From Lachnospiraceae bacterium (GTDB lineage Bacteria > Bacillota > Clostridia > Lachnospirales > Lachnospiraceae): DNA of 45,453 nucleotides. The notes beneath the pieces are model-generated. The model was given only the letters and a program-made list of their open reading frames with translations. It ran no database searches and had not been told where the DNA came from. Every line of letters starts with the position of its first letter. Position 1 is the stretch's first letter. The stretch covers positions 1-45,453 of the forward strand of contig JAIDPH010000105.1 in the NCBI GenBank assembly GCA_029062885.1. The letters are read 5' to 3'. Positions 689-41,261 of the stretch are shown piece after piece. Both the position numbers and the translations under genes were made by a program.

Positions 689-2338
689 ATGATTAGTGCA
701 AACAATGTAACTTATAGAGTAGGCAAGAAAGCCCTCTTTGAGGATGTAAATATCAAATTTACAGAGGGTAACTGCTATGGTCTGATTGGCGCCAACGGTA
801 CAGGAAAGTCCACTTTTTTGAAAATCCTTTCAGGCGCATTGGAAACTACAAACGGTGACATTTCCATTACTCCCGGCCAGCGTCTTTCAGTGCTTGAGCA
901 GGACCATTTTAAATATGACACATATCCTGTCATGGACGTAGTTATCATGGGGAATGAGCGTCTGTACCAGATTATGAAAGAAAAAGACGCCATATATGCA
1001 AAAGAAGACTTTTCTGATGAAGACGGTATCCGCGCCAGTGAACTTGAAGCTGAATTTGCTGAAATGGACGGCTGGGATGCAGAGTCCAATGCTGCAATGC
1101 TGTTAAACGGTCTGGGAATCGACACCGAGCTTCATTACAGTACGATGGGTGATTTGAACAGTAATGAAAAGGTTAAAATACTACTTGCAAAGGCGCTGTT
1201 TGGTAATCCGGATATCCTGCTGCTTGACGAGCCTACAAACCACTTGGATCTGGACGCTATTGCATGGTTTGAAGATTTTTTAATTGACTTTGAAAATACG
1301 GTAATCGTGGTATCCCATGACCGTTATTTCCTGAATAAAGTATGTACGCATATTGCGGATATAGATTACGGCAAAATCCAGCTGTTTGCGGGCAACTATG
1401 ATTTCTGGTATGAATCCAGCCAGTTGATTATCAAACAGCGCAAGGAAGCCAACAAGAAGAAAGAAGAACAGATTAAGGAATTGCAGGAATTTATCTCCCG
1501 CTTCTCTGCTAATGCTTCCAAATCCAAACAGGCTACTTCCAGAAAACGTGCGCTTGAAAAAATTGAGTTGGACGATATCAAGCCTTCAAGCAGGAAATAT
1601 CCTTATATTGATTTCAGACCGGAACGTGAAATCGGCAATGAGGTTTTGACCGTGGAAGGCATCAGCAAGACCATAAACGGTGAAAAAGTCTTAGATAATA
1701 TTTCCTTTATAGTAGGACATGATGATAAAATCGCTTTTGTCGGTGGTAATGAGCTTGCTAAAACTACATTATTTAAAATTCTGGTAGGAGAATTGGAGCC
1801 GGATGAAGGTACTTATAAATGGGGTGTTACTACTTCACAGGCGTATTTCCCTAAGGATAACACGGATGAGTTCAATAACGATTATACGATAACCGAATGG
1901 CTGACCGGATATTCAGCTATCAAGGATGTCACATATGTCCGCGGCTTTTTAGGACGTATGCTTTTCGCAGGTGAAGACGGTGTTAAAAGGGTCAAAGTTC
2001 TCTCCGGTGGTGAGAAGGTCCGTTGCATGCTATCCAAAATGATGATAAGCGGAGCGAACTGTCTGATTTTTGACGAGCCTACCAATCATCTGGATATGGA
2101 GGCTATTACGGCACTCAATGAAGGTATGATGAAATTCAAAGGTGTGGAGCTTTTTTCCTGTCATGACCATCAAGTTGTACAGACTACCGCCAATCGTATC
2201 ATGGAGATTTTGCCAAACGGCTCACTGATTGATAAAATCACTACTTATGATGAGTATCTTGCCAATGATGAAATGGCGAGAAAACGTACTGTATACACCA
2301 GTACGGCAACAGATGAGGACGATTATGAAACAGATTGA
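689..2338 (+). CDS. ABC-F family ATPase (YbiT/YkpA-like)
   Basis: Two ABC domains, GANGTGKST Walker A, LLLDEPTNHLDLDAI and IFDEPTNHLDMEAI Walker B; no TM. Confidence 0.93.
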   Translation: MISANNVTYRVGKKALFEDVNIKFTEGNCYGLIGANGTGKSTFLKILSGALETTNGDISITPGQRLSVLEQDHFKYDTYPVMDVVIMGNERLYQIMKEKDAIYAKEDFSDEDGIRASELEAEFAEMDGWDAESNAAMLLNGLGIDTELHYSTMGDLNSNEKVKILLAKALFGNPDILLLDEPTNHLDLDAIAWFEDFLIDFENTVIVVSHDRYFLNKVCTHIADIDYGKIQLFAGNYDFWYESSQLIIKQRKEANKKKEEQIKELQEFISRFSANASKSKQATSRKRALEKIELDDIKPSSRKYPYIDFRPEREIGNEVLTVEGISKTINGEKVLDNISFIVGHDDKIAFVGGNELAKTTLFKILVGELEPDEGTYKWGVTTSQAYFPKDNTDEFNNDYTITEWLTGYSAIKDVTYVRGFLGRMLFAGEDGVKRVKVLSGGEKVRCMLSKMMISGANCLIFDEPTNHLDMEAITALNEGMMKFKGVELFSCHDHQVVQTTANRIMEILPNGSLIDKITTYDEYLANDEMARKRTVYTSTATDEDDYETD

Positions 2339-3185
2339 TCTGCATGTACATTCAAATAAATCAGACGGAACATATACGCCCACAGCGCTTGTAGATTATG
2401 CCCTGCAAAAAGGGCTTTCTGCTTTCGCACTGACAGACCATGATACAACGGACGGTCTTGACGATGCGATCGCCTATGCAGAAGGCAAACCGATCGAAGT
2501 GATTCCGGGCATTGAGTTTTCTTCTGAAAATGAAGGAAAAGATATACATGTGGTGGGGCTTTATATCAATTATGACGCACCTGCTTTTCAGGCAAGACTG
2601 CAAGCCTTTGTAGATTCACGAATAAACCGTAATATCAAAATGTGCCGTAATCTACAGGAAGCCGGCATAGATATCACTTTCGATAAACTGTGCGCAGAGA
2701 ATCCCGGAGCAGTAATTACAAGAGCACACTATGCAGCATATCTTACGGAACACGGATATGTGACAAACCGCGCTGAAGCTTTCTCTAAATATGTCGGAGA
2801 CAATTGTAAGTATTATGTCCCAAGAGAAAAAATTACACCCGCACAGGCGGTAGAACTGATACTGCAGGCAGGAGGCATTCCGATACTTGCGCATCCTCCG
2901 CTTTATCATATGGGAAACGAACGTCTGGATGCTTTGGTTGGAGTTTTAAAACAAGCCGGATTAATGGGAATTGAAGCCATCTACAGCTCCTATAGCAATC
3001 AGGATGAACGCGATATGTTAAGGCTTGCTAAAAAGTATAACCTACTTCTAAGCGGTGGCTCGGATTTCCATGGTGATAATAAACCGGGGCTTGACCTTGG
3101 CACAGGCTATGGCAAGCTGTTCGTGCCGTATGAATTTCTTGAGAAAATAAAAGAAGCTGCCCAGGGGAACAAATCTGCAGGTTAA
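2325..3185 (+). CDS. PHP-domain phosphoesterase (TrpH/YciV-like)
   Basis: MKQIDLHVHSNKSDGT..., LTDHDTTDG, GGSDFHGDNK; start moved from the ORF-track 2229 to the conserved MKQIDLHVHS. Confidence 0.88.
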   Translation: MKQIDLHVHSNKSDGTYTPTALVDYALQKGLSAFALTDHDTTDGLDDAIAYAEGKPIEVIPGIEFSSENEGKDIHVVGLYINYDAPAFQARLQAFVDSRINRNIKMCRNLQEAGIDITFDKLCAENPGAVITRAHYAAYLTEHGYVTNRAEAFSKYVGDNCKYYVPREKITPAQAVELILQAGGIPILAHPPLYHMGNERLDALVGVLKQAGLMGIEAIYSSYSNQDERDMLRLAKKYNLLLSGGSDFHGDNKPGLDLGTGYGKLFVPYEFLEKIKEAAQGNKSAG

Positions 3186-3191
3186 GAAAAA

Positions 3192-3239
3192 GGCATAGAT
3201 ATTATATGACATAGATAATATAAGGTATAGATATTATTA
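3192..3239 (+). repeat. Three tandem imperfect 16-bp repeats
   Basis: ggcatagatattatat / gacatagataatataa / ggtatagatattatta, ending at the A of the next ATG. Confidence 0.8.
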
Positions 3240-4042
3240 TGAAAATACTATTTACTGATTTAGACGGCACATTACTTAATAATCAAAGCATAGTATCAGA
3301 GAATACCAAGACTTTTCTTAATGATTTCATTAATGCGGGTCATAAACTTGTACTCTCCTCCGGAAGACCGCTTAACAGCATTCTGGAAGTTAAGGAGCTT
3401 GCCGGTCTTAATTATCCCGGTATTCTTATTATAGCATACAACGGAGCTCTGATTTTTGACTGTGACAGTAAGTCGGCTATTTTAGAAAAAAGGCTGCCGC
3501 TTTCTTATGTATCATATTTACAGGCACAGGCAAAATCTCAGAAACTTCACATCCAGACCTATACTGATAATGAAGTCGTCAATACTGCGGATGATGAGGA
3601 AATCCGTTTTTATCGAAGAAGAATCCATCTTCCCCTTGTTTTGGCTGATGATTATGCTTCTTTCCTTAAGAAGGAACCTCTTAAAATGCTTGCTATTCAT
3701 CTGAAAGACCACAGTAGATTGACTGATTTCTGCGATTCGATTTCTGACTGGGCGGCAGATAAAGTTCAATATATTTTTTCCAACGATTATTATCTGGAAA
3801 TCTTTAATAAAGACGCCGGAAAAGGTAATGCAGTCCGCTATGTCTGTGATCATTTCAATATTCCGCGCTCAAACACCTACGCTGCAGGAGATGCTCAAAA
3901 CGATATCTCGATGTTAGAAGCTGCCGGCTGCGGAATCGCTATGCTCAATGCTGCTGACATAGTAAAAAAATCCGCCGATGCCATCACCGTAAAAGATAAT
4001 GACAACGACGGACTTGCCGAATATATGCGGACTGTTCTATAG
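3239..4042 (+). CDS. HAD-IIB (Cof-type) hydrolase
   Basis: FTDLDGTLL motif I, GDAQNDISML motif IV. Confidence 0.92.
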   Translation: MKILFTDLDGTLLNNQSIVSENTKTFLNDFINAGHKLVLSSGRPLNSILEVKELAGLNYPGILIIAYNGALIFDCDSKSAILEKRLPLSYVSYLQAQAKSQKLHIQTYTDNEVVNTADDEEIRFYRRRIHLPLVLADDYASFLKKEPLKMLAIHLKDHSRLTDFCDSISDWAADKVQYIFSNDYYLEIFNKDAGKGNAVRYVCDHFNIPRSNTYAAGDAQNDISMLEAAGCGIAMLNAADIVKKSADAITVKDNDNDGLAEYMRTVL

Positions 4043-27648: not shown

Positions 27649-27708
27649 TGTTGTTACCTTTTCCTCTCTCTTATTGTATATTAATTAAGCAATTACATAA
27701 CTCTATTT

Positions 27709-27797
27709 CAACAACCAGAACTTAGTCAAAATGAACAAAATAAGGAGCGATTTCGCTTGCGGTGAGCTCCGTTTTTGCTTATTTTGACTAAGTTCGT
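27709..27797. repeat. Foldback repeat element, copy A
   Basis: caacaaccagaacttagtcaaaat...attttgactaagttcgt; 15-bp perfect terminal inverted repeat (27718-27732 / 27781-27795); ~86% identical to 29940-30030. Confidence 0.85.
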
Positions 27798-27837: not shown

Positions 27838-29040
27838 CTACATACTTTCCTCATACTTTTCAACTGTTTCAAGAATTTCTCTGGCGTATTTCGGATAGCG
27901 CTGAACAAGTTCCTTAATATCTTTCTGCGCGCCTCCCGCCACGGTTTCTTTGTTATATTCTATTCGTTTACGCAGCGACTGCCTTCTGATTATCAGACTA
28001 TGCCTGATTTCCACCATATCCCTGTGGTCAATGATTGCCTCGGTCTGATGCAGCCATACCTCCGGATAGGCTATTTTATATCTCTTGAGCATCTTAAGAA
28101 GGTCCTGCTGAGCGGCGTCAAGCTCCAGCTCCGCTTGTCTGTATTTCTCCCTCTCTTCTTTCTCACGAGCGTATTTCAGCCACAATGCTTCAAGCTCATC
28201 TGCACTTGAAACATTGTACTTCAAATACAGATAATCCAGTAAGTTCTTGTTATTAACATACCTGATTTTTACCCTGTTCTGTAACAAAATCAGCTTGTTT
28301 ATTCCAAGTTCCACACGCTTAAGTTCTTTTCGTGCATCCATATGTTTCATGTAAATAATTGTAATTGCAATTGCGGCCGCTCCTGCCGTAATCAGACATC
28401 CGGCCTGTGTATCCATCTCCAATAGGAACTGCAGTATCAAAAGAAGTACGAAGCACAAGGCAAACGCCGTCACACAGATAATTGTCATGCCCTTTGTATC
28501 AGCCAGAACGCCTATCACTTCTTTTTTTCGATAAAGATAGGCATGTTTCTCACCATCTAAACGGCTTAAATCCTTCTTCACCAATTCCTGATAGTTCTCC
28601 GCCTCTTTAAGCTTTACTCTACCCTCTTCAATCTCATCAATCATCCGCTCCATCTGGTAGAAACGCTCGTCACTCATCTGACGTTTTCTCTCTACGAAAT
28701 CATCTCTGCTGTCTTGCAGCATTTCCACTCTCTTGGCACAGTTTTTTAAGTAGTCCATTTCATCTTCCGGAAGTGCTTCGATTTCCTCCATATCCTCCAG
28801 ATATGAAGTTACCAGATTGTACTCATAATCAAGATTTTCCATCTCTTTAGAAGCTTCCGATATTTTTTCCAGGCAGTTGCGCACAAATTCTCCGCGCAGT
28901 TCGCTGTTATCAAAATCCCTAATCTTTACTTCTTCCGTATTTTCCGAATATTCAGCTTCGTCCCAATATTCATCATCTTCATATTCCGAATTTGATATAA
29001 GTTTGTTCCACTTCTTTATTATTTTTTTAAACAATCCCAT
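27838..29040 (-). CDS. Uncharacterised coiled-coil membrane protein
   Basis: Long charged helices flanking two hydrophobic segments (MTIICVTAFALCFVLLLILQFLL, AGCLITAGAAAIAITIIYM). Confidence 0.8.
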   Translation of the reverse strand: MGLFKKIIKKWNKLISNSEYEDDEYWDEAEYSENTEEVKIRDFDNSELRGEFVRNCLEKISEASKEMENLDYEYNLVTSYLEDMEEIEALPEDEMDYLKNCAKRVEMLQDSRDDFVERKRQMSDERFYQMERMIDEIEEGRVKLKEAENYQELVKKDLSRLDGEKHAYLYRKKEVIGVLADTKGMTIICVTAFALCFVLLLILQFLLEMDTQAGCLITAGAAAIAITIIYMKHMDARKELKRVELGINKLILLQNRVKIRYVNNKNLLDYLYLKYNVSSADELEALWLKYAREKEEREKYRQAELELDAAQQDLLKMLKRYKIAYPEVWLHQTEAIIDHRDMVEIRHSLIIRRQSLRKRIEYNKETVAGGAQKDIKELVQRYPKYAREILETVEKYEESM

Positions 29041-29047
29041 AATCTTT

Positions 29048-29905
29048 TTACCTGTTCAGCTTCTCCCTATACGCATCTTTTAGTTCATCGGTTAATTTCT
29101 CTATTTCATCATAATATGCCATATTGCCGGCAGCAAGTCCTCCTTCTTCTTTACACACTTTCAATGTAAAGAGCATCCTGCTTACCTGTGTGGCATCGAA
29201 CTGCTCTGCCGCCTGTTCTACCATATGCTCAATCTTCATAGACACCTCATGCAGTTCAGGATGTCCTGCAATATAATCAACATATTCACTGTCGCTATCC
29301 TGCATTCTCCGCGCTGCCAGAAACTGCTCAAGGCTTTCAGGATTTCCGCTTGCCCGGTATGCTTCCATGAATTTTTCCTGTGCAAGTTCAAACATGAAAA
29401 GCTTGGCATATATTACTCCCATATTATGAAGCAGACTCCCCCGAAGTTCTTTTTTCTCCTCAGGCAGCCTTGCAAGCAGTTCGTCATATCTCTCCAATGC
29501 AAGCGTATAATGCTTATTCTGCAGCATATAGTCCGCCTTGGCTTTCTGTTTCTCATATGGACTTAAGCCTTCATTATTCCTTATCACCATTTCGGTATGC
29601 TCAATTACTTCCCGGGAATACAGACCCGCATACTCTAATATCGTTCCCACATATACGTCCACTGATGCTTTCTTATTTGTCAAAGCTTGAAGCGTATGTG
29701 CAAGCTCAGTCAATCCACACTGCCCACCTAACCAGTCCGCCAGTTTATCATCTGTAATACTATTATCTACAAACTCTGCATTTTCCACAAGGCAGAAGCA
29801 TAGCTCTTCAAGTGAATACAAGTTTACATAAGTTTTATCAAAAAAATACGGAATTTTCGCATAATTTCCCGTCCCAAGTATGATATGGCTCATCTTTATG
29901 TCCAT
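29048..29905 (-). CDS. Uncharacterised helical-repeat (TPR-like) protein
   Basis: Helical repeats e.g. ADYMLQNKHYTLALERYDELLARLPEEKKELRGSLLHNMGVIYAKLFMFELAQEKFMEAYRASGN. Confidence 0.8.
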   Translation of the reverse strand: MDIKMSHIILGTGNYAKIPYFFDKTYVNLYSLEELCFCLVENAEFVDNSITDDKLADWLGGQCGLTELAHTLQALTNKKASVDVYVGTILEYAGLYSREVIEHTEMVIRNNEGLSPYEKQKAKADYMLQNKHYTLALERYDELLARLPEEKKELRGSLLHNMGVIYAKLFMFELAQEKFMEAYRASGNPESLEQFLAARRMQDSDSEYVDYIAGHPELHEVSMKIEHMVEQAAEQFDATQVSRMLFTLKVCKEEGGLAAGNMAYYDEIEKLTDELKDAYREKLNR

Positions 29906-29939
29906 TCCCTTTCTTCTGTATCTCAGTCAGATACTTAAT

Positions 29940-30030
29940 CAACAACCAGAACTTAGATAAAATAAACAAAAATAAGGGGCGATTGCGCTTGCGATGAGCA
30001 CCGTTTTTTGTTTATTTTGTCTAAGTTCGT
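29940..30030. repeat. Foldback repeat element, copy B
   Basis: caacaaccagaacttagataaaataaacaaaa...ttttgtttattttgtctaagttcgt; near-perfect 25-bp inverted repeat. Confidence 0.85.
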
Positions 30031-30052
30031 CCGTATCCGATAACAATGTCAT

Positions 30053-31375
30053 TTACGTAACCGCAAACTGTTTCTTCCACATTTTACCGCCAACCGGAAA
30101 CAGCTCCCCGAATCCTAAATCCGTTATCTTCATTTCCACGCACTCCGCAGAAACCATCCTGATTTCCATCTCATATCTGCTGAATGCACCTTCTCTCACA
30201 GGTGCGTCCTCCAGAACAATTTCCTGAATTCCCGCACGCTCTCCCGTAAGCGGCGTAATCAGAAACGAAAGGATATTTTCCTCTCCCGGAAGCAGTATCT
30301 CGCAGCTTTTGTGCACCTCGTACCAGTTTTCGCCCGCGTCTAACAATGCATAATAAGATTCTTTCCCTCGCCTGAACACATTCATTCCCACGTTGGACTT
30401 TAGTTTGTCAGGTCCTAAGAAAATATGTTCCTTTCCCTCTTTACTAGGCTCGAACCTCTCAAGCAACGCAAAGCATGCGCCCTTACAGAAAAGATTGTTG
30501 CCCTGAAAAACCCTTCGGTTCCGGCATAAAAAGCGCAGGGATTCCTTAGCCCACTCATTCTTAAATCCGTCTCCCAAAAGATACGCTGAGGATACGATTC
30601 TGTCTGTACACTGATTGTTAAGAATATTACAGAATTTTTCGTCTGCTGCCGCATAAGCATCTTTTTTTATTTCCTCTTCTTCCTGCTCGTCAGGAAGCGC
30701 CAGTGTCCCGTATATCTGTTCTTCTATCAGCACCACTATCGGAGTTGTTCTTTTATTGCGTTCCATTCTGTACGTCTTAAGTCTTGTACCGTTATGCTCA
30801 CAGGCAAGCACCTGATATTTCCACAGTTCTTCAGGCTGGTGCAGTACGAAATAGTAAAAGCTCTCCGTATGGCTTTGGAAATAAATATGTGAAGTCTTAA
30901 GATTCAGGTTCACCGCCGCCTGCGACAATATCTCCACCATCCTGTCATCCAGCACATCTACCGTAAACATGAATGCATCTATATTTTCCGACGCTGTCAC
31001 GAAACTCATCAACGCAAGGCTTCTTTTAATAAATAATGTCAGAAGGGCGACAGGGTCGTAGGACTCTTCTTCTATTTCAATCATTTCACCCTTTCTGGCA
31101 AGCTCAACCAGATTGATAATCAGGTTCCCTTCTTCCTGACCTGCCCTAATGGCATCCCTGCCATACAGCCACTGGTTTACTCCTTTTCGTTTACATAATG
31201 CCGTAGGGATATTATACTGCTTCGTTCCTACGACAGTCGCAACGCTTTCGACCGGTTCTTTAGAGTCTTCTCCATACACACAGTAGCTTATCTGCGAGAA
31301 ATCATTTCCCAAGTCATAGCCTGCAAGAATACTGCCTTTATGCACTTTTCCATCTGTTTTCCTGTCAAAGAACAT
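30053..31375 (-). CDS. DUF5716-like protein with apparent Hsp70/actin-fold ATPase features
   Basis: ILAGYDLGNDFSQISYCVYGED resembles phosphate-1; YLLGDGFKNEW...RRVFQGNNLFCKGACFALL resembles adenosine/C-terminal motif; family name from memory. Confidence 0.7.
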   Translation of the reverse strand: MFFDRKTDGKVHKGSILAGYDLGNDFSQISYCVYGEDSKEPVESVATVVGTKQYNIPTALCKRKGVNQWLYGRDAIRAGQEEGNLIINLVELARKGEMIEIEEESYDPVALLTLFIKRSLALMSFVTASENIDAFMFTVDVLDDRMVEILSQAAVNLNLKTSHIYFQSHTESFYYFVLHQPEELWKYQVLACEHNGTRLKTYRMERNKRTTPIVVLIEEQIYGTLALPDEQEEEEIKKDAYAAADEKFCNILNNQCTDRIVSSAYLLGDGFKNEWAKESLRFLCRNRRVFQGNNLFCKGACFALLERFEPSKEGKEHIFLGPDKLKSNVGMNVFRRGKESYYALLDAGENWYEVHKSCEILLPGEENILSFLITPLTGERAGIQEIVLEDAPVREGAFSRYEMEIRMVSAECVEMKITDLGFGELFPVGGKMWKKQFAVT

Positions 31376-31423
31376 TTAAATACCCTTGCTCCCTTCCCAA
31401 GATTCCTGCGTAAAGCTCATTTT

Positions 31424-34400
31424 TCAGATAGCCTTAAACAGTCTGTCTGCCATAAAATCTTTCTTATAATACTCTGCTAATAATTTATCTACGGTATCAT
31501 AGTCCTGCAGAGTCTTTCCGATCATTATATCATTCAGCATATTAAACCTGCTGCTCTCATGAACCGCGTCGCCGATATCGCTTCTGTTTATCATGCCGCT
31601 TTCGGTCACCTGCTCCCTGCCGTCAACCTCTTCCGTAATATAATATTGCAGCCGCTCTCCAAAAAACAGAATAAATTCCTTCACGCATATGCCCGCAAAC
31701 ATATCTTTCATATTTTCCCTACAGTATTCCTGCCCTGCGCCGCCCTCTTTCTGAATCAGGTAGTGAATTGTTGCACGATGGCCGGGCTTAGCCCTGTATT
31801 CCAGAATGGACTTATCCTGTAATATATCCAACGCAGGAAGATAGCCCTGAAATTCCTTGAAAAGCGGCAGTACAATCTGATGCGACAACAGTTCTTGTAA
31901 AAATTCTTTTATTATAGCTTTGTTATCCTCTGATATTTCATTCTTATTTTCCGCATAATATTTCAAATATGCCAACTTGCACACCAAATGCAAAGCGGCA
32001 TTTTCCCTATGCATATTCAGAATGCACTGGAGTAAAAACGGCTCTGTTATTTTTTCATTTATTACATAATCATAGCAGCACTGATATATAAATGCGGCAA
32101 TCACTTCATCTTTTCCGCCTGCCTTTATATACGAGCCGAATATATCCATCTTCTCTCCAATATGAGAGCCTGTATAAAGCATCTGCACTATAATACGCTC
32201 ACTCAGCTCATAAGGCTCCACACCGAAATCACACGCTGCCTTCCATATATCGCGCATATCCTTTGTGCTGCCGTTATAAAAGCGAATCAGATATTTCAGG
32301 ACATTTTCATCATATTTTCCCCTTTTCATAACATAATGGAGAGTGTCTGTCATAAAAGCATTTTCTTCCGGTTCGTCTTCCGCTAGCAGTCTGCTGGACA
32401 TTTTCACAAGTGTTTTGGCGTCTATCCCATAAGGTCCGATACGCAAAACCCACTCATAAGCTTCCTCATACATTCCGCGAAGTACCATCAGGCGCACTAT
32501 TTCCTTCCTGTCGCTTAGCGCAATATCTTCGAGCTTCAGGGACATAAGATATTCATCCAACTCCCACATGCGGTCTTTTTCATAATAAAAATTCACAAGC
32601 TTAATCCTGATTTCCTGACGGATTGGACTCACAAGAAAATCAGTATCGGCAAGATGCCTGAACTGTTCTGCATTATCTTCCTGTATGACTATGGAATCCT
32701 TTCCCGCAAAGCATACATTCAGAGCATATCCAAGATGCTCCTTAATATAAGTCGCTGCAAGTGATAAAAGGCTTCCAGCCGAAACCAAACGCTCAACACG
32801 ATATGAAATACTGCATATATAACGGTTTCTATAACCGTCTTCCAAAATAATCTGACAGTTTTCATCATAAATCGGTACCTGAGCCCTGCCAGATGTAACA
32901 GGATAAGCCATCTGTCCCGCAGCATATGGATAAACCAGAATGACTTGCCGCACCATATCGCTTTCCACTATGATATCCTGCGTAAATATCAGCGATAATA
33001 ATCCCTTAGCCACCTCTTCGTCTACCATTGACTGTGTAAGAATATTACGATATAGATAGGCTAAATGTTTATTGATTCTTCCATGCTTTATCTGCTCAAT
33101 GACAAAACTTTCCATAGCAGGAAGATAGTTTACATAAATATCCGGTATCGCATCCTTGCGTTTATATACATACGCATACAGATACGCGGTAATCTCATAA
33201 CTCAAATCACTCTGATAAGAAAAATACATCAATATCATCTTAGGCAGAGTTTCCTTGCCGTCTAAGGGAAGAGACATCATATAAAACTCATATAGTCTGG
33301 TAATCCGCAAGTTTTGTTCTACACCTGAGCGATACCACCGAAGATACTTTTCACCATATAAATTTCCCTTAATAAGAATTGTGCAGATTGCCTGAAGGAT
33401 ATCATTCTGCGGTCTTTTATCATAGCAGGAAACCAGAATGTCAAATAGAATCCCTGAAAATCCCTTCTGCTTCTGTGCAAGATATATAAGCTGTATTACA
33501 ACATCATCCTTTAGTACATCATTTTTGGCAGCATAATTCAATATCTGCAGTTCAAATTCACCGAGTTTTAACAGAATGGCGGGATTCATACTGAGTACAT
33601 TCCATGCTTCCATATAGAGTATCGGACTGTTGCAGTTATTAGCAAAAAGTTCTTCAAACAGCGCCCATTTTCTGGAAGCGTTCTTAATATATTCATCCGC
33701 AATAAATAAAAGCATCCATGCAATCCGCCAGTTGCCGCGGTTTCGCTCGTAAATACGGAGAATTTTCGATGCAGCGTCATCAGTATACTCCTCATTTTTG
33801 CTGCATAGCGCCGTAAGATACAGATAATAACACCAGATTTCAGGTTTATCTTCCCGAATTTCCACTATTGCATCTTTATTCTGTTCAAGAATCCAACTTG
33901 CTTCATTGAAGCGTTCCTGGGTTATAAAAAGATGCGCCTGAAATAAGCCTGTGGATATATCTTTACCATATAACCCCTTAAGCCTGTCTATTAGTCTGCC
34001 GGTCTCATCCATCCAAGTCTTTGCACTTATCTTTTTAAGTCGGAAGTTCTGGTAAAGCTGCATCAACTGTACAACAACGCGCTTTCTCTCTTTATATATT
34101 CCATGCAGCTTCCGCGCCGTTTCCGCACGATGAACGACAGTAATAGGAATGGTGACTGTCTGTTCATAACTGATTAATCTGATGCAGCCATAATTATTAC
34201 CGGCATGAAGATTATCATCAAGGATGTAATAATACAGCCTGTACAAATTTCCAAGAAAGTCGTCGTCCGATACAACCTCCTCATCTATACTCAAAAAATC
34301 CCCTTCCGTCTCGATACGCAGATGTGTATATCCCCAGCCGTTACGATTAATAACAAGTGAATATCTCGCAAGAGCTTCAGGGTTTTCTATCACTATCTGA

Positions 34401-34993
34401 GTTTCCTCAGGAATAAATTCTACACTCTTCTTTTTATTGATTGTCAGCAGAAATTCTTCTACGTTGTGTTCATTTCCATAAATTTCGGAAAGACCCTTAT
34501 ACGCATTATAATACTGTCTGTCGTTTCCGGTAAATATTTGTTCAAATTCTTCGCTATAGAATAATTTTACAGCTTCCGGCCATTCGCTTTTCGCTAAATT
34601 CGTAAAATGAAACAGATTTCTGATATCACCAATGCTTGACTTAACCGTGCCCTTTATGACGGTAACGGAAAAAGGGAGATAGTATTCCCCCTGATTTGAT
34701 ATAATATGAAAAACGCCTTTTATCTCATCACCGATTTTCATTTCAGAAGCATCGACGCGGTAGTATATATCATCCTGACTGCCGTTAAAAGATGTGGTAA
34801 GGCACTCCATACGCAGATCCGAGGAAATAATATGCCCCTCGGTCAATGTCCCTTCTGTGGCATATATGGTAAAAAACCCTTCTTCAATACTTCCGGGCTT
34901 GAGAGTAATGTCTACGCGCGGACATGAAAAATCCAGGGAGGTATTATCAGATTTGAAATTGCCTTCTAATATTTCTTGGATAATCTGTTTCAA
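31424..34993 (-). CDS. DUF5717-like 1189-aa protein: N-terminal beta domains + long helical repeats
   Basis: N-term beta-rich segments (ITLKPGSIEEGFFTIYAT...; NRNGWGYTHLRIETEGDFL), then helical-repeat body; family name from memory. Confidence 0.72.
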   Translation of the reverse strand: MKQIIQEILEGNFKSDNTSLDFSCPRVDITLKPGSIEEGFFTIYATEGTLTEGHIISSDLRMECLTTSFNGSQDDIYYRVDASEMKIGDEIKGVFHIISNQGEYYLPFSVTVIKGTVKSSIGDIRNLFHFTNLAKSEWPEAVKLFYSEEFEQIFTGNDRQYYNAYKGLSEIYGNEHNVEEFLLTINKKKSVEFIPEETQIVIENPEALARYSLVINRNGWGYTHLRIETEGDFLSIDEEVVSDDDFLGNLYRLYYYILDDNLHAGNNYGCIRLISYEQTVTIPITVVHRAETARKLHGIYKERKRVVVQLMQLYQNFRLKKISAKTWMDETGRLIDRLKGLYGKDISTGLFQAHLFITQERFNEASWILEQNKDAIVEIREDKPEIWCYYLYLTALCSKNEEYTDDAASKILRIYERNRGNWRIAWMLLFIADEYIKNASRKWALFEELFANNCNSPILYMEAWNVLSMNPAILLKLGEFELQILNYAAKNDVLKDDVVIQLIYLAQKQKGFSGILFDILVSCYDKRPQNDILQAICTILIKGNLYGEKYLRWYRSGVEQNLRITRLYEFYMMSLPLDGKETLPKMILMYFSYQSDLSYEITAYLYAYVYKRKDAIPDIYVNYLPAMESFVIEQIKHGRINKHLAYLYRNILTQSMVDEEVAKGLLSLIFTQDIIVESDMVRQVILVYPYAAGQMAYPVTSGRAQVPIYDENCQIILEDGYRNRYICSISYRVERLVSAGSLLSLAATYIKEHLGYALNVCFAGKDSIVIQEDNAEQFRHLADTDFLVSPIRQEIRIKLVNFYYEKDRMWELDEYLMSLKLEDIALSDRKEIVRLMVLRGMYEEAYEWVLRIGPYGIDAKTLVKMSSRLLAEDEPEENAFMTDTLHYVMKRGKYDENVLKYLIRFYNGSTKDMRDIWKAACDFGVEPYELSERIIVQMLYTGSHIGEKMDIFGSYIKAGGKDEVIAAFIYQCCYDYVINEKITEPFLLQCILNMHRENAALHLVCKLAYLKYYAENKNEISEDNKAIIKEFLQELLSHQIVLPLFKEFQGYLPALDILQDKSILEYRAKPGHRATIHYLIQKEGGAGQEYCRENMKDMFAGICVKEFILFFGERLQYYITEEVDGREQVTESGMINRSDIGDAVHESSRFNMLNDIMIGKTLQDYDTVDKLLAEYYKKDFMADRLFKAI

Positions 34994-35127: not shown

Positions 35128-36192
35128 TTAGTTACCTTTAATAGTAAGGGCATGTAAATAAGCATCGGAACCGCGCGCACATGTTACAGTAACCTGCTTG
35201 CCGCTTACCAGAACCTTGCAGTTGCTGACGTTGTAAACCGCATCAAGCTTAAGCACCATCTCACCCTGTGACGTATTCAGATACAATATATCTTCAGTTG
35301 ACTTGCTGCTAACGGTGCCGGTCACTGTCATTGGAGACGCGGTGTCTATTTGTACTGCCGCTGCAGCTGTCTTTACACCTACAATCATTGCCGCATGCAT
35401 ATATGCATCGGAACCGCGGTATACGGAAAGCGTCAATGAACGCCCCGGTGTAAGAACCATACCGAATCTGGAGTCGGTATTCGCATCAATTACAATATGC
35501 ATTTCTCCGCCGCTTGTCGCAAGATACAACATTTTTTCCGTCGTATTGCTGCCAACCGTACCTGAAACCACTGTAGTTTGTGCTGTCACAGCGGCCGCCG
35601 GCATCGGTGAATTTGCTGTACTTCCCGTTACTGTTGTATTTGAATTCATACTATCAATGCTGATTGCATGCAGGTATGCATCTGATCCCCGTGCACAAGT
35701 GATATTGTATGTAGTATTCAATATAAGAACTACTCCCGAATTTATCCTAGTAGTGTCATCTAACTTAATTTGCATCTCACCGCCGGATGTATTAAAATAA
35801 AGCATCTCCTCAGTAGACTTCGTACTTATTGTTCCCGACACAGTCATAGGATGAGCTGTATCAACTGTAACTGCTGGTTTCGGTGCTTCCTTGAAAAGCT
35901 TAGCAGCATGAAGATAGCCGTCATTGCCATATGTTACGGAAACATATACGCTGCTGTTTGGGAGCAGAAGCTTGATTCCGGTAGCGTCTGTATTACTATC
36001 CAACTTAATAGTCATCATTCCTTCAGGAGTAGAAAGATATAACAGGTCACCTGTCGTTTTACTCGACACGGTTCCATGTACCGTAGCTATAATATCCGCA
36101 GCTTCCGCTTTCAACTGATTGTTCGGCAACATCATCATGCCCAATACAAGGCAGATTGCAAACCATAGTTTTACGCTCATAAGTTTTTTCAT
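35128..36192 (-). CDS. Secreted protein with four tandem ~65-80 aa repeats
   Basis: Signal peptide MKKLMSVKLWFAICLVLGMMM...AEA; repeats (V/T)xGTxxSKxTExxLYxxTxxGEMxIKLD...ARGSDAYLHAxxI. Confidence 0.85.
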   Translation of the reverse strand: MKKLMSVKLWFAICLVLGMMMLPNNQLKAEAADIIATVHGTVSSKTTGDLLYLSTPEGMMTIKLDSNTDATGIKLLLPNSSVYVSVTYGNDGYLHAAKLFKEAPKPAVTVDTAHPMTVSGTISTKSTEEMLYFNTSGGEMQIKLDDTTRINSGVVLILNTTYNITCARGSDAYLHAISIDSMNSNTTVTGSTANSPMPAAAVTAQTTVVSGTVGSNTTEKMLYLATSGGEMHIVIDANTDSRFGMVLTPGRSLTLSVYRGSDAYMHAAMIVGVKTAAAAVQIDTASPMTVTGTVSSKSTEDILYLNTSQGEMVLKLDAVYNVSNCKVLVSGKQVTVTCARGSDAYLHALTIKGN

Positions 36193-36319
36193 TTTAAGTT
36201 TTACCTCCCTGAGTACAATAATAATTTTCGTCGTATTATGTAAATACATTATGTTAAGTTATTATGTAAATCAATTATACAATACCAGATATAGGAAATC
36301 AATACTTTATATTAAAAAA

Positions 36320-39082: not shown

Positions 39083-41158
39083 TTACTTAGTCAGCAGCAT
39101 CATAATATCATTGCTTCTTGCAACAAATTTCGTCATAGCTTCCGGCTCAAGCGGCGTCTGCTGCAGCAGCGCAAGGTCATAGAGCTGCTCACAAATCATT
39201 CTGACATTATCTCCATCCTTGTGCTCAAGTACATATTGCACCAGTGGATGATTGGCATTCAGAATAAGTGTCTCACCCTCTTTACCGCCGAACATTCCCA
39301 TATCCATACCCTGCATAGCATACATCTTCATCATATCCTGCATTCTTCTGGTCTCTTCGGATAAGGTTATCATGGAAGAAATTTTCTTATTTTTCAGCTT
39401 TTCAACCTTAACGGTAATTTTGTCTTTCTTTAAGACCTTCTTCATAATCTTAGAGATTTCTTCCGTCTGCTCTTCTAACTCTTTTTCGGCTTTCTTACTT
39501 GTCTTAGCCTTAAAGGTATCTGTTAAATCAGCATCTATTCTCTGGAATTTAATTCCTTCATTCTTAGACTCAAGCTGTGATACGAAAGGCTGGTCTATAT
39601 TATGCGTAAGAATTACCGCATCCATCTTAGCAGACTTAAACATATTGATGTACTGACTCTGCTGATTAACGTCAGTTACATAGTAGATGACTTTTTCTTT
39701 GTTTTCATCATCAGATGCTTCTTCATCTTCTGTACCGTCAACCTTCTCACCGTTTTCGTCTACTACTTCAGCTTCAACTTTTTCACCGTTTTCGTCTGTA
39801 GCGGAAGCTTCTACCTCGTCCGGATCGATTTTATTCACTTCCAGACATTCCGGAAGGGTCAGATATTTTCCATCCAGATTCTTGAACAAGATATAATCTG
39901 TCATCTTCTCACAGAACTTATCATCCTTTAAGCATCCGAATTTAATGAACGGACTGATGTCGTCCCAGTATTTCTCATATTCTTCTTTTTCGGTCTTGCA
40001 CATACCTGAAAGCTTGTCTGCAACCTTTTTCGTAATATATTCGCTTATCTTATTTACAAATCCGTCATTCTGCAATGCGCTTCTGGATACATTCAGCGGC
40101 AGATCGGGGCAATCAATAACGCCTTTTAAGAGCATCAGAAATTCAGGAATAACTTCCTTGATATTATCTGCGATAAAAACCTGACTATTGTACAACTTAA
40201 TGGTTCCTTCAATTGATTCATATTCCATATTAATCTTAGGGAAATACAATATACCCTTTAAATTGAACGGATAATCCATATTCAGATGAATCCAGAACAA
40301 AGGCTCCTTGTAATCCTGAAATACCTTGCGGTAAAACTCCAGATATTCCTCCTTCGTGCATTCATTTGGATGCTTAGCCCAAAGCGGATTGGTTTCATTC
40401 AAAAGTTCAGGACGCTTTTTAATCTTTAATTTCTGCTCGTCCTCTTCTTTTTCCTTTTTGATTTCTTCCACTACGATGTCAGTATCAAGTTTTTCCGCTT
40501 CTGTTATAGTCTGCGTATCTGTTGTATTTGCTTTGGAAAGATATATCTCTATAGGCATGAAAGAACAATACTTTTTAATTACCTCTCTCGCCTTATACTC
40601 GTTGCAGAATTCCAGACAGTCTTCATTGATGAAAAGAGTAATCTCAGTTCCTACTTCGCTCCTGTCTCCATCTTTCATATCAAATTCCGTACCGCCGTCG
40701 CATTCCCAATGAACAGCCTGCGCGCCATCCTTATATGAAAGGGAATCAATATGCACCTCATCAGCTACCATGAATGCGGAATAAAAACCCAAACCAAAAT
40801 GACCGATAATCTGATCGTCGTTTGTTTTATCCTTGTATTTTTCAATAAAATCCGATGCCCCCGAAAAAGCAATCTGATTAATATACTCCTCAACCTCGTC
40901 AGCAGTCATGCCGAGTCCGTTATCAATAAATTTGAGAGTTTTCTCTTCCGGATTTACAATGACCTGAATCTTCGCCTTATAATCATCGGGCAGCGAATAT
41001 TCGCCCATCATATCCAGTTTCTTTAATTTTGTAATTGCATCACAGCCATTGGAAATCAACTCACGGAAGAAAATATCATGATCCGAATACAACCACTTTT
41101 TAATAATAGGAAAAATATTGTCACTGTTAATAGATAAACTGCCATGTTTTACTGCCAT
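39083..41158 (-). CDS. htpG: Hsp90-family chaperone HtpG
   Basis: RELISNGCDAITKLKK, IDNGLGMTADEVEEYINQIAFSGA, GHFGLGFYSAFMVAD; start set at MAVKHGSLSI (41158). Confidence 0.96.
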   Translation of the reverse strand: MAVKHGSLSINSDNIFPIIKKWLYSDHDIFFRELISNGCDAITKLKKLDMMGEYSLPDDYKAKIQVIVNPEEKTLKFIDNGLGMTADEVEEYINQIAFSGASDFIEKYKDKTNDDQIIGHFGLGFYSAFMVADEVHIDSLSYKDGAQAVHWECDGGTEFDMKDGDRSEVGTEITLFINEDCLEFCNEYKAREVIKKYCSFMPIEIYLSKANTTDTQTITEAEKLDTDIVVEEIKKEKEEDEQKLKIKKRPELLNETNPLWAKHPNECTKEEYLEFYRKVFQDYKEPLFWIHLNMDYPFNLKGILYFPKINMEYESIEGTIKLYNSQVFIADNIKEVIPEFLMLLKGVIDCPDLPLNVSRSALQNDGFVNKISEYITKKVADKLSGMCKTEKEEYEKYWDDISPFIKFGCLKDDKFCEKMTDYILFKNLDGKYLTLPECLEVNKIDPDEVEASATDENGEKVEAEVVDENGEKVDGTEDEEASDDENKEKVIYYVTDVNQQSQYINMFKSAKMDAVILTHNIDQPFVSQLESKNEGIKFQRIDADLTDTFKAKTSKKAEKELEEQTEEISKIMKKVLKKDKITVKVEKLKNKKISSMITLSEETRRMQDMMKMYAMQGMDMGMFGGKEGETLILNANHPLVQYVLEHKDGDNVRMICEQLYDLALLQQTPLEPEAMTKFVARSNDIMMLLTK

Positions 41159-41198
41159 AAAATCACGTTCCTTTCTCTTATATCTATATCTAAAAATC

Positions 41199-41227
41199 AG
41201 TTTAATGCGCTCACCTAAAAATGTCAA
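41199..41227 (-). promoter_or_regulatory. Predicted htpG promoter (TTGACA-N17-TAAACT)
   Basis: minus-strand ttgaca (41227-41222), taaact (41204-41199). Confidence 0.65.
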
Positions 41228-41234
41228 GAAAAAA

Positions 41235-41261
41235 TTAGCACTCATCTTCATCGAGTGCTAA
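41235..41261. promoter_or_regulatory. CIRCE operator (HrcA binding site)
   Basis: TTAGCACTC-ATCTTCATC-GAGTGCTAA, exact match to the CIRCE consensus. Confidence 0.95.

Follow-up and report, generated by a model that had tools for sequence, protein, structure and literature searches.

A conserved Lachnospiraceae operon combines a degenerate, lid-less Hsp70 (DUF5716) with a giant scaffold protein and appears to be reduced from a multi-Hsp70 locus

Ssz1, which together with Zuo1 belongs to the yeast ribosome-associated complex, has no lid and binds ATP without hydrolysing it, yet contacts nascent chains (PMC7083937). Ssz1 is a partner-bound subunit and, like the protein DUF5716 considered here, a lid-less Hsp70; unlike Ssz1, DUF5716 has additionally lost subdomain IIB and the phosphate-2 loop, and its operon shows no J-domain partner and no sign of ribosome binding. 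In DUF5716 the lid is absent and the ATP site is eroded, and synteny and gene fusion suggest a partner protein. Hsp70s of the DnaK, HscA and HscC kind share with DUF5716 the homologous lobes of the nucleotide-binding domain (NBD) and the beta part of the substrate-binding domain (SBD-beta), but DUF5716 is without catalytic residues, subdomain IIB and lid, and it is encoded in a fixed operon with DUF5717. A similar operon, found in sister families of the same order, occupies the same locus and has four homologous parts, but its gene set extends to a GrpE-like protein and to three Hsp70s whose ATP motifs are intact. Proteins of the operon are direct members of the Pfam families DUF5716_C, DUF5717_N and DUF5717, entries that are without function and whose names give no link to Hsp70. 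Among open-licence PMC papers, DUF5716 and DUF5717 occur only in one unrelated paper, and we found no account of the operon and nothing relevant on an Hsp70/GrpE/vWA cluster or on mutagenesis in Lachnospiraceae; a study of DnaK paralogs makes no mention of Lachnospiraceae.

The window, meaning the whole stretch of 45,453 nucleotides that was analysed, carries on its minus strand four co-directional open reading frames running from 34993 to 27838 (Table 1), just where a preliminary description based on the sequence had placed them. They are transcribed in the order DUF5717 (1189 aa), DUF5716 (440 aa), TPR protein (285 aa) and coiled-coil protein with two transmembrane (TM) segments (400 aa). 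The two family names given in that description are correct: Pfam finds DUF5717_N and DUF5717 in the 1189-aa protein (PF18984 and PF18983 together) and DUF5716_C (PF18980) at residues 135-438 of the 440-aa protein. Above the Pfam cut-off there was no match for the coiled-coil protein, and the 285-aa protein has weak TPR matches only; NCBIfam names no family for any of the four proteins, and an Rfam search of the operon returned a single sub-threshold match. All four genes are under strong purifying selection, with dN/dS of 0.057-0.078 where dS could be estimated. A palindromic repeat of about 90 nt, with a long hairpin and 39 matches in its own genome (74-100% identity), is dispersed in the manner of a MITE- or REP-like element, and the pair of TPR and coiled-coil genes has one copy on either side. 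Because one copy was inserted between DUF5716 and the TPR gene, the gap there is 147 nt, compared with a median of 9 nt elsewhere. Just upstream of the operon, at 35128-36249, lies a gene for a secreted-looking protein of 373 aa, in which a unit of about 75 aa is repeated about four times and which has a weak match to the NirD/YgiW OB-fold; htpG (Hsp90, recognised by eye) lies nearby at 39083-41251, as it also does in a few close loci.

Table 1. Features of the operon and of its proteins, in window coordinates
Feature	Position	Strand	Basis or remark
DUF5717 scaffold, 1189 aa	31424..34993	-	TTG start; PF18984 1021 bits and PF18983 344 bits
Two Ig-like beta domains of DUF5717, ~aa 21-124 and 192-288	34130..34933	-	AF2 secondary structure
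Alpha-solenoid of DUF5717, ~aa 293-1060, beta insert aa 671-735	31814..34117	-	AF2
DUF5716, 440 aa: degenerate lid-less Hsp70, NBD without subdomain IIB, plus SBD-beta	30053..31375	-	PF18980 334.7 bits
Phosphate-1-like segment of DUF5716, ~aa 15-33, SILAGYDLGNDFSQISYCV	31277..31333	-	Aligned to DnaK GIDLGTTNS
Eroded phosphate-2 segment of DUF5716, ~aa 188-203, QVLACEHNGTRLKTYR, replaces DLGGGTFD	30767..30814	-	Motif table, hhalign
Retained adenosine-side segment of DUF5716, ~aa 262-304, LLGDGFKNEW...RRVFQGNNLFCKGACFALL	30464..30592	-	Aligned to DnaK GGSTR and GA helix
SBD-beta-like C-terminal domain of DUF5716, ~aa 320-438, ends in DxGFGExFP motif, no alpha lid	30062..30418	-	Profile, hhalign, model strands
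Palindromic repeat, ~90 nt, between DUF5716 and TPR genes	29939..30030	-	Hairpin z = -4.1
TPR protein, 285 aa: conserved ~115-aa N-terminal domain and TPR repeats	29048..29905	-	
Coiled-coil membrane protein, 400 aa, optional fourth gene	27838..29040	-	
Palindromic repeat, second copy, after coiled-coil gene	27708..27797	-	Hairpin z = -4.7

The DUF5716_C profile is found in 293 of the 299 sampled genomes of the window's GTDB family, usually in one copy, and a phylum-wide draw gave it in 5 of 399 genomes, all five from that family; many of the sampled genomes are assemblies from metagenomes. The family is called Lachnospiraceae here, after the titles that most close relatives bear (Lachnospiraceae, Butyrivibrio or Clostridiales). 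DUF5717_N reaches further: among genomes of the order's other families 61 of 131 have it, as do 15 of the 15 listed from its own family, with none above the cut-off elsewhere in the class outside the order. Three of the six genomes without DUF5716 have DUF5717, and the other three (G427, G489 and G622) are without it; G489 and G622 are missing the TPR protein as well, and G427 has generic TPR matches only. We compared 47 loci, mostly from different genera, and DUF5717, DUF5716 and the TPR gene are contiguous and in this order in nearly all of them, the exceptions being one locus in which the TPR gene was not seen and one (L049) in which a longer antisense ORF hides DUF5716, an artefact of gene calling. 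The median intergenic gaps along the operon are 21, 9 and 10 nt, and in two loci DUF5716 and the TPR protein are naturally fused (L121, 702 aa; L129, 684 aa). The three genes thus behave as a unit, by contiguity, co-retention, co-loss and fusion, and the presence of DUF5716 and the gene order are far beyond chance. The coiled-coil gene is next in line in about half of the 47 loci, and is absent in 12 of the 14 DUF5716-bearing family genomes tested for it, several of which are complete.

The neighbours of the operon vary and point to no cellular process: purine genes, ABC transporters and htpG each adjoin it in parts of the family only. We rejected a shared function with purine synthesis genes, since purC, purF and purB are downstream in some loci and missing in others, and did not adopt HtpG as a functional partner, since it is upstream in a few close loci only. 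A role in anti-phage defence was likewise set aside; PADLOC gave no credible match (only E=0.006 and 0.5, both for the coiled-coil protein), and an operon that is near-universal in its family and sits at a conserved locus does not fit the patchy distribution expected of such systems.

A single-sequence search of the PDB with DUF5716 returned nothing, and a family profile was needed to see its relationship to Hsp70. A profile of Lachnospiraceae sequences alone (A1) matches DnaK at E=2.1e-7, and when the sister sequences are added the match is E=5.7e-18, over the NBD and SBD-beta and aligned through about residue 500 of DnaK. Compared by hhalign, A1 matches the degenerate Hsp70 of the sister families at 100% (E=1.2e-46, 417 columns) and their canonical Hsp70B at 99.8% (E=4.7e-28). 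The template-free AlphaFold2 model, built from the Lachnospiraceae-only alignment (pLDDT 92.4, pTM 0.89), has as its best 50 Foldseek matches in the PDB DnaK, Hsc70, BiP, mortalin, Sse1, Ssb and RAC (Ssz1), together with chains of larger complexes that contain Hsp70s, the axonemal central pair among these complexes. Its match to DnaK (E=4e-19) is aligned over both NBD and SBD; the TM-scores are moderate (0.43-0.56 by query) and the rmsd is 8-20 A, so the domain arrangement differs from that of solved Hsp70s or is uncertain. By descent DUF5716 is an Hsp70, with profile homology and an NBD plus SBD-beta fold of uncertain domain orientation, and we hold this ancestry to be practically certain. 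The actin/Hsp70 fold of the preliminary description therefore stands, in the specific form of an Hsp70 with NBD and SBD-beta and not as a generic actin-like or MreB/ParM-like ATPase. A filament of the MreB, ParM or FtsA type was rejected, as there is no bacterial actin among the best 50 Foldseek matches and the ATP site is eroded.

The phosphate-1-like start and the late LLGDGF segment that had drawn attention to this protein are both present and align to the corresponding Hsp70 segments, the latter (LLGDGF...KGACFALL) to the adenosine segment. The phosphate-1 Asp (D21 of the window protein, in AGYDLGN) is kept in 85% of homologs and the adenosine Gly in 100%, G268 and G299 being invariant across 61 homologs, while the TT pair (T11/T12) is mostly lost. 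At K70 there is mainly Leu, Tyr or Val, and Lys is not a common residue there in the degenerate sister paralogs either; E171 is replaced mainly by His or Tyr, and the phosphate-2 motif DLGGGTxD is degraded, the MAFFT placement of these eroded residues being approximate. The catalytic residues are 92-100% conserved in the sister proteins Hsp70A, Hsp70B and Hsp70-vWA and in DnaK. Subdomain IIB, which in Hsp70 makes contacts to adenine and to GrpE, is missing from DUF5716: the positions E267, K270 and S274 are gapped in 61 of 61 homologs, and the spacing between phosphate-2 and adenosine motifs has a median of 63, compared with 135-172 in the comparison groups. The alpha-helical lid is also absent, with about 171 residues beyond the adenosine motif compared with about 306 in DnaK, and the model ends in beta strands. 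By its sequence DUF5716 thus does not look like an active Hsp70, having neither the catalytic Lys and Glu nor phosphate-2, subdomain IIB or lid, and judging from these motifs it has very probably lost the ATPase. Retention of the phosphate-1 Asp and the adenosine Gly indicates that it may still bind nucleotide.

The 1189-aa protein had been described as having N-terminal beta domains and a helical scaffold, and its AlphaFold2 model (pLDDT 87.3, pTM 0.63) agrees, with two Ig-like domains, then a long solenoid that is interrupted by a beta insert, and a beta domain at the C-terminus. The Ig part is matched in Foldseek by ciliary central-apparatus (axonemal) and Ig-tandem proteins over about 290 columns at low TM-score, and the solenoid has partial matches to the solenoids of Ski3, Ctr9 and Naa15 and weak profile matches to PPR/TPR. 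The third and fourth proteins also conform to their first description: the TPR protein has TPR profile matches at about aa 119-190, and the coiled-coil protein has hydrophobic peaks suited to TM helices starting at about aa 185 and 213, between two charged regions. Homologs of both are present in the sister families, those of the TPR protein including its N-terminal domain and those of the coiled-coil protein at E 1e-38 to 1e-69.

In the sister families, the locus comprises eight to nine genes in one operon, among them those for a GrpE-like protein and for three canonical Hsp70s. It begins with DUF5717, which is either split into proteins of about 400 and 900 aa or fused to about 1330 aa, followed by Hsp70A (559 aa), a GrpE-like coiled-coil protein (644 aa), a degenerate Hsp70 (523 aa), Hsp70B (551 aa), an Hsp70-vWA fusion (692 aa) and the TPR gene, and in several sister loci by the coiled-coil gene and valS. 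The same CobD-like aminotransferase gene, divergently oriented, flanks the operon upstream in 30 loci from both groups, and valS is found downstream in both groups, in four loci of the sisters and, at a distance of one to four genes, in 14 loci of Lachnospiraceae. The Lachnospiraceae operon and the sister multi-Hsp70 operon are therefore the same locus, by their shared flanks. In the Lachnospiraceae loci examined, none of the genes for Hsp70A, the GrpE-like protein, Hsp70B and Hsp70-vWA lies between or beside the triad, and in four genomes of the family (G433, G690, G588 and G470) the only Hsp70 matches are DnaK and an MreB-type match over a short region. A search for the GrpE-like protein outside the order gave short matches like those of ordinary GrpE only, and none in Lachnospiraceae.

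The degenerate sister Hsp70 matches both DUF5716_C (1.5e-26) and HSP70 (1.4e-17), and one locus (L147) is intermediate, with the full gene set and a degenerate Hsp70 that already has the DUF5716 signature RRVFQGQNLFSYGACY. DUF5716 groups with this paralog (SH-aLRT 92) in a tree made by a quick method, which has long branches and was used for grouping only. DUF5716 most likely derives from an Hsp70 paralog that had already degenerated within an ancestral multi-Hsp70 operon. Because degenerate sister paralogs are without the catalytic residues yet keep most of the length of subdomain IIB, the decay looks stepwise. The ATP-driven parts would then have been lost from the Lachnospiraceae locus rather than gained in the sisters, a direction we infer because the simplest origin for a dead Hsp70 is an operon that also encodes live ones. 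Judged by gene content, the sister unit resembles a scaffold equipped with several Hsp70s and an exchange factor. In L147 the Hsp70-vWA gene is split into overlapping ORFs of 198 and 494 aa (1340-3384), a frameshift in the gene or the assembly. Other Hsp70 genes were noticed outside the DUF5716 operon. In the window's own genome (L176, G000:C369:1-8000) an Hsp70 of 567 aa lies beside a short protein, two Ser/Thr-kinase-like proteins and one FHA-like protein, judged by eye to be a different cluster, and in L175 (G000:C396) and L177 (G628:C1:1235000-1246000) an HscC-like Hsp70 is followed by a gene with a J-domain-like start, recognised by eye.

With the ATP-driven engines gone in Lachnospiraceae, the remaining parts can probably only bind, hold or dock. 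On balance we favour the view that the operon encodes a reduced Hsp70-type, ATP-independent client-docking platform resembling Ssz1. DUF5717 would bring DUF5716 and the TPR protein together in a single assembly, and a physical complex of the three appears likely; the SBD-beta of DUF5716 would passively bind a client protein or a segment of a partner, with no ATP cycle, and clients might then be left to fold or be handed on, either to a partner or to the housekeeping DnaK. In genomes that have it, the coiled-coil protein would tie the assembly to the membrane. The main rival to this docking platform is a purely structural role, in which the dead Hsp70 fold is a rigid protein-protein module that organises the envelope, the cytoskeleton or another machine. 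The giant scaffold of Ig and solenoid parts predicted in DUF5717, the optional membrane partner and the lack of an intact ATP site would suit this role, but the three canonical Hsp70s and GrpE-like protein of the sister operon place the scaffold in a chaperone setting, and SBD-beta has been retained while the ATPase parts have not; we consider a purely structural complex possible, if rather unlikely. It is improbable that DUF5716 and the TPR protein act as a regulator or sensor, titrating or sensing DnaK or unfolded protein and using the scaffold to pass on the signal: such a role would agree with the TPR homology of the third protein, as TPR domains commonly bind other proteins, and with the single, near-universal copy of DUF5716 in the family, but Pfam and NCBIfam reveal no kinase, DNA-binding or other output domain in the conserved genes.

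The membrane-tethered ATPase assembly proposed in the preliminary description is highly improbable as an active actin/Hsp70-like machine. It draws on the Hsp70 fold of DUF5716 and on the phosphate-1 Asp and adenosine Gly that most homologs keep, but it is contradicted at the sequence level by the loss of the catalytic Lys and Glu, the phosphate-2 loop and subdomain IIB. Many genomes with the triad are missing the membrane protein, and since this gene is optional, the core function cannot lie in tethering to the membrane. The synteny that the same description had looked for did hold across loci, and the predicted structure has the Hsp70/actin fold. That DUF5716 is a functionless, decaying relic of an old Hsp70 operon, as the absence of four sister-operon genes and of its catalytic residues might suggest, is strongly disfavoured and has next to no likelihood, because its dN/dS is about 0.07, all four genes are similarly constrained and it is retained in nearly all genomes of the family.

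These results give an evolutionary identity to two DUF families that are present in almost every sampled member of a main gut bacterial family, and the sister families reveal an apparently undescribed operon that encodes a scaffold together with a GrpE-like protein and three Hsp70s. The Lachnospiraceae operon offers an example of a chaperone operon that is without its ATP-driven parts but whose scaffold and dead Hsp70 are under strong selection, so that the role of an Hsp70 without ATP can be put to the test in bacteria. The chances seem evenly balanced that Lachnospiraceae almost universally run an ATP-free, chaperone-derived platform, reduced from a three-Hsp70 scaffold, which would now be a family-defining function.
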